Source: Ruegeria profundi
GTDB lineage: Bacteria > Pseudomonadota > Alphaproteobacteria > Rhodobacterales > Rhodobacteraceae
DNA length: 64,000 nt
Assembly (NCBI RefSeq): GCF_001507545.1
Contig: NZ_LQBP01000003.1
Span: 434,001-498,000, forward strand
Direction of reading: 5' to 3'
The position numbers and the translations under genes are program-made. The notes below the pieces were generated by a model. It ran no database searches. It was given only the letters and a program-made list of their open reading frames with translations, and was not told the DNA's origin. Below, piece by piece: positions 25,158 through 26,709 of this stretch (position 1 is its first letter; each line of letters starts with the position of its first letter).

Positions 25158-25285
25158 ATTAGTCATCCCAACCGTTTTGCATGCAACTGGGCTTTCTTCA
25201 GCTAAACTGCGTGCAAGCGTTAACAAATTTGCGCTTTTGATATAAACTCATAGTGTTGTTTGTGATTAACGCATAGGTGTGCGGC

Positions 25286-25654
25286 GTGGGTCAGACAATT
25301 TACGAAAGATACGGCGGGTTCAAAACGATCAGCCGGATCGTGATGACATTCTATGAAATGGCCTTGGATTCTGACCAGATCGGCGGCCATTTTGAAGATA
25401 TAGACATTCCGCGCCTAATAGATCACCAGACCAAATTCGTCTCTTCTTTGGTTGGGGGGCCTGCGTCTTTCAGCGACGAAAGGATTGAGGCGGTCCATCG
25501 AAATCTGAACATTTCACACGCAGATTTTGACGAAATGGTCGAGCTTTTCACAGAAGCTTTATCCATTCACGGGATGGAGGACTCAGATATCAAGACCGCG
25601 CTGAACGCAATCGAGTCAAAACGCTCGATCATTGTCACCCGTGACACGGCATGA
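25286..25654 (+). CDS. Group 1-like truncated haemoglobin
   Basis: Small haem protein of about 122 residues, the right size for a truncated globin. It opens with YERYGGFKTISRIVMTFYEMAL, the TrHb helix A/B region with the Gly-Gly turn. HQTKFVSSLVGGP forms helix E, and EAVHRNLNI contains the expected proximal haem His. The start is GTG 25286 or GTG 25277; neither has a strong ribosome-binding site. The last bases overlap the adenylate cyclase start (ATGA), so the two are translated together. This suggests that the globin is a gas or redox sensor or partner for the cyclase; that link is inference. Confidence 0.85.
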   Translation: MGQTIYERYGGFKTISRIVMTFYEMALDSDQIGGHFEDIDIPRLIDHQTKFVSSLVGGPASFSDERIEAVHRNLNISHADFDEMVELFTEALSIHGMEDSDIKTALNAIESKRSIIVTRDTA

Positions 25655-26709
25655 GCATTCTCGCCATAAATGAACAATTACTTCGTGCGATAGGGGTCGG
25701 GGTTGCGGTTGTTCGGGCCTCGGATTTTAGCTTTGTTTTTCAAAATGGGCCTTTCAGTGATTGGTTCGGAACCCCGGAAAAGGGGCAAACGCTTTTGGAC
25801 CTGCTACCGTCTCTGGATTCGCGAGAGCTGGATGACGTGAAGCAATCCGGGCTTCGGTACTCGGTTGAATTGCAGATAAAACCAAAGCGGAGAACCCTTA
25901 TCCTGGCGACGACTGTCTCGCTGGCGAGCGGTTTGTCCGAGCAGGTACTGGTGATTGAATGCCAAAACATCACCCGCATCCGCGAGTTGGAAAGCATGAT
26001 CGACAGTTACTCGACCATGGTGGAACGCAACACGCGTGAGCTGGAGCGTGAGAAAGAGCGCGTCGAACGCCTGTTGTTGAACCTGATGCCGCGCGCCGTG
26101 TACGAAGAATTCAAAACCTTTGGCGTTGTCACTCCGCAGCTATATGATCAGGTCTCGGTCGTTATGCTGGATTTTGTCGGCTTTACCGATTTTGCAGCCA
26201 AAACTGATCCAACAGTCACGCTGAGTGAACTGAATGACATCTTTACTGCTTTCGACCGTATCGTTGAACAGTTCGGGTGCGAGCGGATCAAGACAATAGG
26301 TGACGCTTATCTGGCCGTCTCCGGCATGCCGGATGCAACACCGGACCATGCCACGGCGGTAGCGCATTGCGCCGTACGGTTCCTTCGGTACCTCGAGCGC
26401 AGGAATGAAAGTCACCCTCACAAGTGGCAAGCGCGGATCGGTTTGGGCATGGGTGCCGCCGTGGGATCAGTCGTAGGGATACAGAAATATGTCTATGACG
26501 TCTTCGGCCCCGCGGTGAACATTGCCGCGCGATTGCAAGTCTTTGCAAACCCAATGCATATTGTGGCCCCGGAAGAAATGAAATACGCGCTGATTGACGA
26601 GTTTCAGGTCTCGGATATCGGGCGTGTGGATATCAAGGGCATGGGTGAGATGAACCTGATTAATGTCTCTTCGGGTCTGAGTGTGCCGATGCGGAAAAGC
26701 AGGTTCTGA
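25651..26709 (+). CDS. Class III adenylate cyclase with PAS-like N-terminus
   Basis: Predicted to make cAMP from ATP; 352 residues. Residues 1-110 resemble a PAS or HNOB-associated sensor domain. About 110-150 is a charged coiled coil ending in LLLNLMPRAVYEEF, the helical linker typical of sensor cyclases. The catalytic domain is at about 160-340. Metal-binding Asp residues occur in VVMLDFVGFTDF and IKTIGDAYLAVSG. The adenine-selecting Lys (RIKTIG) and Asp (YDVFGPAVN), and the transition-state Asn and Arg (VNIAARL), are all present, so it should be active and ATP-specific. Coupled by ATGA overlap to the truncated globin gene. Confidence 0.93.
   Translation: MSILAINEQLLRAIGVGVAVVRASDFSFVFQNGPFSDWFGTPEKGQTLLDLLPSLDSRELDDVKQSGLRYSVELQIKPKRRTLILATTVSLASGLSEQVLVIECQNITRIRELESMIDSYSTMVERNTRELEREKERVERLLLNLMPRAVYEEFKTFGVVTPQLYDQVSVVMLDFVGFTDFAAKTDPTVTLSELNDIFTAFDRIVEQFGCERIKTIGDAYLAVSGMPDATPDHATAVAHCAVRFLRYLERRNESHPHKWQARIGLGMGAAVGSVVGIQKYVYDVFGPAVNIAARLQVFANPMHIVAPEEMKYALIDEFQVSDIGRVDIKGMGEMNLINVSSGLSVPMRKSRF

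Follow-up and report, generated by a model that had tools for sequence, protein, structure and literature searches.

The window analysed here, i.e., 64,000 nucleotides of contig NZ_LQBP01000003.1 (positions 434,001 to 498,000) from the Ruegeria profundi assembly GCF_001507545.1, contains two overlapping genes on the forward strand: an open reading frame at 25277–25654 that encodes a truncated haemoglobin, and one at 25651–26709 that encodes a class III nucleotidyl cyclase. An earlier note on this DNA, made from the sequence alone, had described a globin gene and a cyclase gene with a 4-base overlap, and both the list of open reading frames and the sequence confirm it: the start codon of the cyclase and the stop codon of the globin share the tetranucleotide ATGA. 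Globin and cyclase are separate reading frames in the window as well as in the pairs examined from other genomes, with no fusion. The same start-stop spacing of −4 is found in 73 of the 97 loci L065–L161 (a set with repeats that includes the window’s own genome) and, within the family sample, in 9 of 16 pairs. Within its genome, the globin of the pair is the sole match to the Bac_globin family and the cyclase ranks best among 22 cyclase-domain matches. The features of the locus are collected in the table.

Table. Features of the globin-cyclase locus (window positions)
Feature	Position	Strand	Basis
Promoter-like element TTAACA-17-TAAACT	25220..25248	+	Promoter scan and alignment of 24 Ruegeria loci with the window
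Group 1 truncated haemoglobin, probably 122 aa from GTG 25286 (listed ORF: GTG 25277)	25286..25654	+	Pfam, PDB relatives, alignment
Tyr B10 codon (residue 26 of the 125-aa ORF)	25352..25354	+	Tyr in 107/108 distinct paired globins, one gap
E-helix signature DHQTKF (D49-F54; H50 = E10, Q51 = E11)	25421..25438	+	Alignment
Proximal His F8 codon (H74)	25496..25498	+	His in 108/108 distinct paired globins
ATGA (cyclase start / globin stop)	25651..25654	+	Sequence
Class III nucleotidyl cyclase, 352 aa, predicted adenylate cyclase	25651..26709	+	Pfam, PDB matches, residues, model
N-terminal helix and PAS-like domain (residues 3-106)	25657..25968	+	Predicted structure; PAS_8 in 28/50 relatives
Signalling helix (residues 108-145)	25972..26085	+	Predicted structure; HNOBA in 43/50 relatives; conservation
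Catalytic domain (residues 163-341) with six catalytic residues	26137..26673	+	Pfam, PDB, predicted structure

The globin start at 25277 that the earlier note adopted is probably three codons early. When the upstream DNA of the window is aligned with that of 24 Ruegeria loci, selected by us from the best 80 named ones, the start codons share one column at GTG 25286, where six of the 24 loci have ATG, so the globin is probably 122 residues long. Upstream of the globin, a TTAACA element followed by a TATA-like stretch is conserved in most of the Ruegeria loci compared (the 24 and the window). The promoter scan reports three promoter-like sites in this region against a mean of 1.4 in shuffled sequences, a signal that is weak on its own, and inspection by eye of the window and of the aligned Ruegeria upstream DNA revealed no convincing FNR or CRP box upstream of the globin.

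The globin matches Bac_globin with 53 bits (cut-off 21), and its best solved relatives in the PDB comparison bear the name group 1 truncated hemoglobin, with 3aq5 in first place; together with His F8, Phe CD1 and Tyr B10, these matches identify a group 1 (TrHbN) globin. Our census of the pair comprises 108 distinct pairs, derived from a set of 111 rows in which three loci are entered twice (L072/L011, L105/L013 and L113/L014). The tree comparison, the E-helix comparison and part of the conservation figures are based on 111 or 109 rows including duplicates; dropping the duplicates left the residue proportions unchanged. His F8, His E10 and Gln E11 are each present in all 108 distinct paired globins, Phe CD1 in 107 (with one gap) and the motif DHQ[TS]KF likewise in 107, while position E7 is mostly Leu (92 of the 108). 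In the alignment with cyanoglobin 1s69, the E10 His falls on a His that we take to be the distal haem ligand of that globin. The invariance of His F8, His E10 and Gln E11 makes a six-coordinate, switchable haem likely in the paired globins, although the E10 His by itself falls short of proof. In excerpts of PMC11904497, the residue at E10 is described as one that may coordinate the haem iron, with its departure from the haem coupled to conformational change, and Synechococcus GlbN as six-coordinate via its distal histidine; an excerpt of PMC7082302 similarly terms the Synechocystis globin hexacoordinate.

Comparison with 40 unpaired truncated globins or globin domains reveals differences on helix E at positions E9, E10, E12 and E13. 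Asp E9 (D49) occurs in 111 of 111 paired rows versus 2 of 40 unpaired sequences, and Lys E13 (K53) in 99% of the paired rows versus 3% of the unpaired (1 of 40). At E10 the unpaired sequences have Lys (20), His (9), Met (8) or another residue (3), and the combination of His E10 and Gln E11 is found in only three of them (L192–L194), all near relatives of the paired globins; the remaining six unpaired globins with E10 His lack Gln E11. The helix E signature may represent a surface for a partner, or it may only mark a clade.

The cyclase matches the Guanylate_cyc family with 138.9 bits (cut-off 21.9), and the PDB sequences that match it best belong to adenylate cyclases of mammals and of bacteria (5o5k, for example). 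The catalytic residues are complete, as the earlier note had read them: D174, K214, D218, D283, N290 and R294 are all found, which presumably serve metal (two Asp), ATP-selecting (Lys/Asp) and transition-state (Asn/Arg) roles. By the rule that we assume for the ATP-selecting positions, K214 and D283 predict ATP as the substrate. The AlphaFold model of the cyclase (50 sequences, mean pLDDT 84.7, pTM 0.54) consists of an N-terminal helix, a PAS-like domain (16–106), a long helix (108–145) and the catalytic domain (163–341), in this order. The earlier note had assigned the cyclase to a PAS/HNOB-associated type. Of 50 relatives, 43 match HNOBA and 28 match PAS_8 at E <= 0.01; in the window cyclase HNOBA reaches only 17.8 bits, under the cut-off of 23.4, and covers only the last strand and the signalling helix. 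Taken together, the model and the family matches of the relatives give the succession of PAS, signalling helix and cyclase core from the N-terminus to the catalytic end.

A Foldseek search with the cyclase model places the mycobacterial cyclase 5o5l at the top, with chains of soluble guanylate cyclase (sGC) among the next matches. The sGC alignments mostly span 339–395 columns (gaps included) with a TM-score by query of ~0.5 and an rmsd of mostly 10–22 Å, which suggests for the model a succession of domains like that of sGC in a different spatial arrangement. Among 52 non-redundant cyclases, mean conservation is highest in the signalling helix (107–145; 84%) and in the segment after it (88%) and lowest in the PAS part (50%) and the C-terminus (48%). 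Pfam detects no H-NOX domain in the cyclase protein, and no His is among the invariant or near-invariant residues of the PAS part.

The linkage of the two genes was assessed in samples of increasing taxonomic breadth. In the family sample (198 genomes), where close relatives were defined by E <= 1.9e-29 for the globin and E <= 6.2e-58 for the cyclase, both genes occur in the same 15 genomes and neither gene occurs alone at these thresholds. All 16 copies are adjacent and on the same strand, including L033, the second copy in G125, whose reading frame is interrupted near the cyclase start. The Fisher p value of 8e-23 for this co-occurrence is descriptive, being uncorrected for kinship among relatives that are not independent. 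Outside the pair type, the family sample contains nine weak globin places (E 3.9e-8 to 8.3e-4) and 18 cyclase places with E 9.3e-41 or weaker, where the match begins only at residue 104. In the genus sample (54 genomes, which contain the usual pair type, a more distant type, or both), the globin lies directly upstream at 61 of 61 cyclase places, in 53 genomes, and among the 254 relatives found in named genomes, the best 80 are preceded on their own strand by the globin in 80 of 80 cases. In the class sample, cyclases with E <= 1e-50 are found at 18 places in 17 of 385 genomes, two of which belong to the family sample as well, and the globin is adjacent in 17 of 17; at the eighteenth place (the second in G554) only the C-terminal part is matched and no globin lies beside it. 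Two pairs of the class sample are broken, L154 (G404) by a stop inside the cyclase and L160 (G224) by both genes being incomplete or stop-interrupted.

Five of 299 genomes in the phylum sample have a match. Two of them are G000 and G055 again, and in G811, a further genome of the class, a DHQTKF globin adjoins the cyclase; the two matches outside the class align only from residue 128 on. A Novosphingobium plasmid record provides an independently annotated case, in which the gene after a group 1 truncated hemoglobin is given as an adenylate/guanylate cyclase. Among the samples searched, the pair is found only in Alphaproteobacteria. The samples overlap in G000 and G055, and three named loci are identical to family loci. 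No close cyclase relative lacking the globin was found at the thresholds used in the family, genus, named and class samples, where the best 10 (family) or 5 (class) candidates per genome were scored, and 7 in the phylum sample, so that a remoter globin-less cyclase could escape. The earlier note had proposed conserved synteny as a check on the pair, and by the counts given for the four samples the synteny is conserved; judged from these genomes, the linkage is far beyond chance.

The globin, on the other hand, can be found without the cyclase. In the genus sample the cyclase is missing at 4 of 65 globin places (L238–L241), and three of these four genomes carry another pair. A tblastn search of 6–6.5 kb around each of the four detected cyclase remnants at two of them and none at the other two, and the cyclase seems to have been lost first. 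Globins without the cyclase also occur in G236, G506 and G290 (contig C41), and such globins may have another use. Loss therefore looks one-sided, in that the globin can persist without the cyclase while the reverse is not seen among close relatives.

The linkage is maintained down to 43% cyclase identity and amid differing flanking genes, and the conserved adjacency of a haem protein and a signalling enzyme is what would be looked for in a trans-acting haem sensor. Tree distances of globins and cyclases correlate with r 0.87 (109 rows), a value reached by 0 of 999 permutations and expected for any co-inherited neighbours. In Ruegeria meonggei (L144), both genes have their closest relatives among loci of Rhizobiaceae and Tepidamorphaceae, in contrast to the pair usual for the genus, which points to an apparent joint transfer of both. 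Clustering of the flanks of 34 loci, chosen from 81, shows PPK2 in 15 and TetR in 13; neither was retained as a general third gene, the recurrence being limited to Ruegeria, Leisingera and related genomes.

All six catalytic residues are canonical in 100 of the 107 distinct cyclases. Two others (L158 and L159) have Lys to Arg as the sole catalytic change, and five (L017, L019, L020, L022 and L033) have lost the transition-state pair; the Novosphingobium plasmid cyclase, which is outside the 107, has Ile and Gln at the transition-state positions. Because the transition-state residues are lost in the cyclases of these six related pairs, it is unlikely that every pair signals through cAMP. The globins beside the L017, L019, L020 and L022 cyclases retain their haem residues. 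When these four cyclases are compared with ten divergent canonical relatives of our choice, the N-terminal helix (0.91 vs 0.65) and the signalling helix (0.76 vs 0.73) are kept as well as in the relatives and the PAS domain nearly as well (0.39 vs 0.43), while the catalytic domain (0.58 vs 0.71) and the C-terminus (0.19 vs 0.38) have drifted more.

A histidine kinase of the type PAS-HisKA-HATPase(-REC), or its OmpR-type regulator, is present in the flanks of 16 of 101 loci (L137, L139, L140, L142–L144, L215, L217–L220, L222–L224, L233 and L235), which is not a random rate, as 20 of the 101 loci were chosen to include degenerate family pairs. Kinase or regulator is near five of six degenerate pairs, directly downstream in L215, L217, L218 and L219 and divergent in L220; the sixth, L221, which the genome of L218 carries as its second copy, has no such kinase or regulator nearby. 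Both kinases that were scanned contain HisKA and HATPase domains. The association of degenerate pairs with the kinase is suggestive, and the group may be partly one clade. The window pair itself has no such third gene: a histidine kinase was considered and rejected, since none is adjacent and the genome offers no more than a match of 34% across the kinase and receiver portion.

Truncated globins without the cyclase occur in several other settings among the loci inspected by eye. Eight unpaired globins with Lys or Met at E10 (L181, L187, L196, L200, L202, L203, L208 and L209) are followed by a reductase of the ferredoxin-FNR type, and these loci are probably NO dioxygenase operons. In six loci of Alphaproteobacteria (L182, L183, L184, L186, L189 and L191), the translations place a truncated globin domain within CheA-like kinases. 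In five of the loci it is preceded by an Hpt-like N-terminus, and L189, which is cut at the start, has two globin domains; for truncated hemoglobin within CheA, the open-access literature yielded nothing apparently related. The globin of L193 (G236), which has His E10 and is closely related to the paired ones, has a Rieske-type oxygenase gene downstream and no cyclase. An operon of a globin and a PAS protein without cyclase in G506 (L192) was considered as a bearer of the same PAS module and discarded, as its 146-aa open reading frame, which starts with MSI, obtained a probability of 2.4% in the profile comparison.

We consider it probable that the operon encodes a two-piece haem sensor, in which the truncated globin acts in trans on an sGC-like cyclase and changes its cAMP output. 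From the observed gene layout, linkage and residue conservation and from the predicted architecture, we infer the haem coordination, the binding, the ligand, the contact surface, the direction of control and the synthesis of cAMP as follows. The truncated globin would hold the haem through His F8, and in the resting state the sixth position would probably be taken by the invariant His E10. When O2, NO or CO binds, or the redox state changes, E10 would be displaced and helix E would move. Through the pair-specific face of helix E (D49, T52 and K53), our proposed contact surface, the globin would attach to the N-terminal helix/PAS part of a cyclase dimer, from which the signal would run along the signalling helix to the catalytic domain and alter the output of cAMP. 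An AlphaFold prediction of the L144 pair read through as a single chain, with a two-residue linker and few paired rows, gave a pTM of 0.50, an unordered linker and no confident docking, although such a set-up probes docking poorly. The earlier note’s suggestion of a gas or redox sensor that feeds cAMP gains from the synteny, the invariant haem pocket and the sGC-like architecture, while the transition-state residues lost in six related pairs count against cAMP as the output of every pair.

Other explanations have to be weighed against the two-piece sensor. The globin could be an enzyme, an NO dioxygenase or a peroxidase-like protein, that shields the cyclase or removes its ligand with no direct allosteric control, which we regard as quite unlikely. 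The paired globins do retain Tyr B10 and Gln E11, the Novosphingobium pair is preceded by two NAD(P)/FAD oxidoreductase genes, and several unpaired truncated globins of the class adjoin reductases of the ferredoxin-FNR type, as expected for NO dioxygenases; excerpts of PMC3820574 report that truncated globins can dioxygenate NO and describe an operon of a globin with a reductase. This explanation is weakened because eight reductase queries had no tblastn match at E <= 1e-10 in 101 pair loci (flanks of ~1–7 kb), and it sits poorly with the deviation of the paired globins from the unpaired ones along helix E. It is also unlikely, in our judgement, that the two genes are merely co-expressed, the cyclase sensing via its own PAS domain and the globin acting independently. 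PAS domains are capable of sensing alone, the PAS domain is, with the C-terminus, the most variable part of the cyclase, and certain globins persist on their own; however, mere co-expression would have to accommodate a linkage that holds across such divergence in cyclase sequence and flanking genes, the apparent joint transfer in Ruegeria meonggei, and the failure to find a close cyclase relative without the globin at the thresholds used. Delivery of haem to the cyclase, or signalling of haem status, without any gas sensing would fit a small gene for a haem protein beside a regulator gene and would require no gas, but the PAS part has no invariant or near-invariant His and the globin keeps a ligand pocket that contains Tyr B10 and Gln E11, and we hold this to be very improbable.

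Beyond the two-piece sensor of the window, one can speculate that the truncated globin replaced H-NOX as a separate subunit across Alphaproteobacteria, and that some of the cyclases became pseudo-enzymes which relay the state of the haem to the adjacent histidine kinase, such that a single unit of haem, PAS and signalling helix changed its output from cAMP to phosphotransfer. We view this scenario as doubtful; if true, it would provide a natural case of a cyclase becoming a pseudo-enzyme with the sensor retained.

We found no earlier description of a truncated globin-cyclase pair in the open-access literature, most subscription journals being outside the scope of the search. Known systems comprise cyclases fused to a globin, cyclases with H-NOX, and haem sensors that stand alone; new, to our knowledge and as far as the open-access literature goes, is an sGC-like cyclase linked to a free-standing truncated globin. 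For many truncated haemoglobins the role is unsettled, and NO removal is a frequent guess. If these globins are tied to the cyclase, the class of truncated globins would acquire a signalling role with a simple assay, namely cAMP measured against the state of the haem.

Among known systems, the cyanobacterial GlbN and other group 1 truncated haemoglobins share with the globin of the pair the fold, His F8 and, in 1s69, the His aligned with E10, but the globin of the pair differs in its DHQTKF signature with Asp E9 and Lys E13, and we know of no cyclase linkage for GlbN. Globin-coupled sensors are single fused chains with globins of another lineage, whereas the pair has a separate group 1 truncated globin. 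They would resemble the pair in having a globin sensor and, in some cases, a cyclase output, as in HemAC-Lm according to excerpts of PMC12755159. The earlier note had set the pair apart from the known fused globin-coupled and H-NOX-linked sensors, a distinction that stands given the separate reading frames and a cyclase in which Pfam detects no H-NOX.

The one HNOB match of the genome lies on another contig, beside a GGDEF gene; this stand-alone H-NOX (L216, contig C4) has a 4-base overlap with its neighbour, which was recognised as GGDEF by eye. Excerpts of PMC8846402 describe how H-NOX controls a diguanylate cyclase in trans in Dinoroseobacter shibae and others, and the pair resembles the systems treated there (Dinoroseobacter shibae H-NOX/Dgc1, Legionella Hnox1/Lpg1057 and NosP/NahK) in that a small haem protein would govern a separate signalling enzyme here too. 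The haem fold and the enzyme class of H-NOX/diguanylate cyclase and NosP/NahK differ from those of the pair. Soluble guanylate cyclase, with its order of H-NOX, PAS, coiled coil and cyclase, appears similar to the modelled cyclase in the PAS-like domain, the signalling helix and the class III catalytic domain, and in both systems a haem protein would provide the input. Unlike sGC, the cyclase of the pair has no H-NOX of its own, a truncated globin on another chain would serve as haem module, and the ATP-selecting residues of the window cyclase presumably specify a different substrate, ATP. If the two-piece sensor is real, the haem input of an sGC-like core can come from another globin family as a loose subunit.
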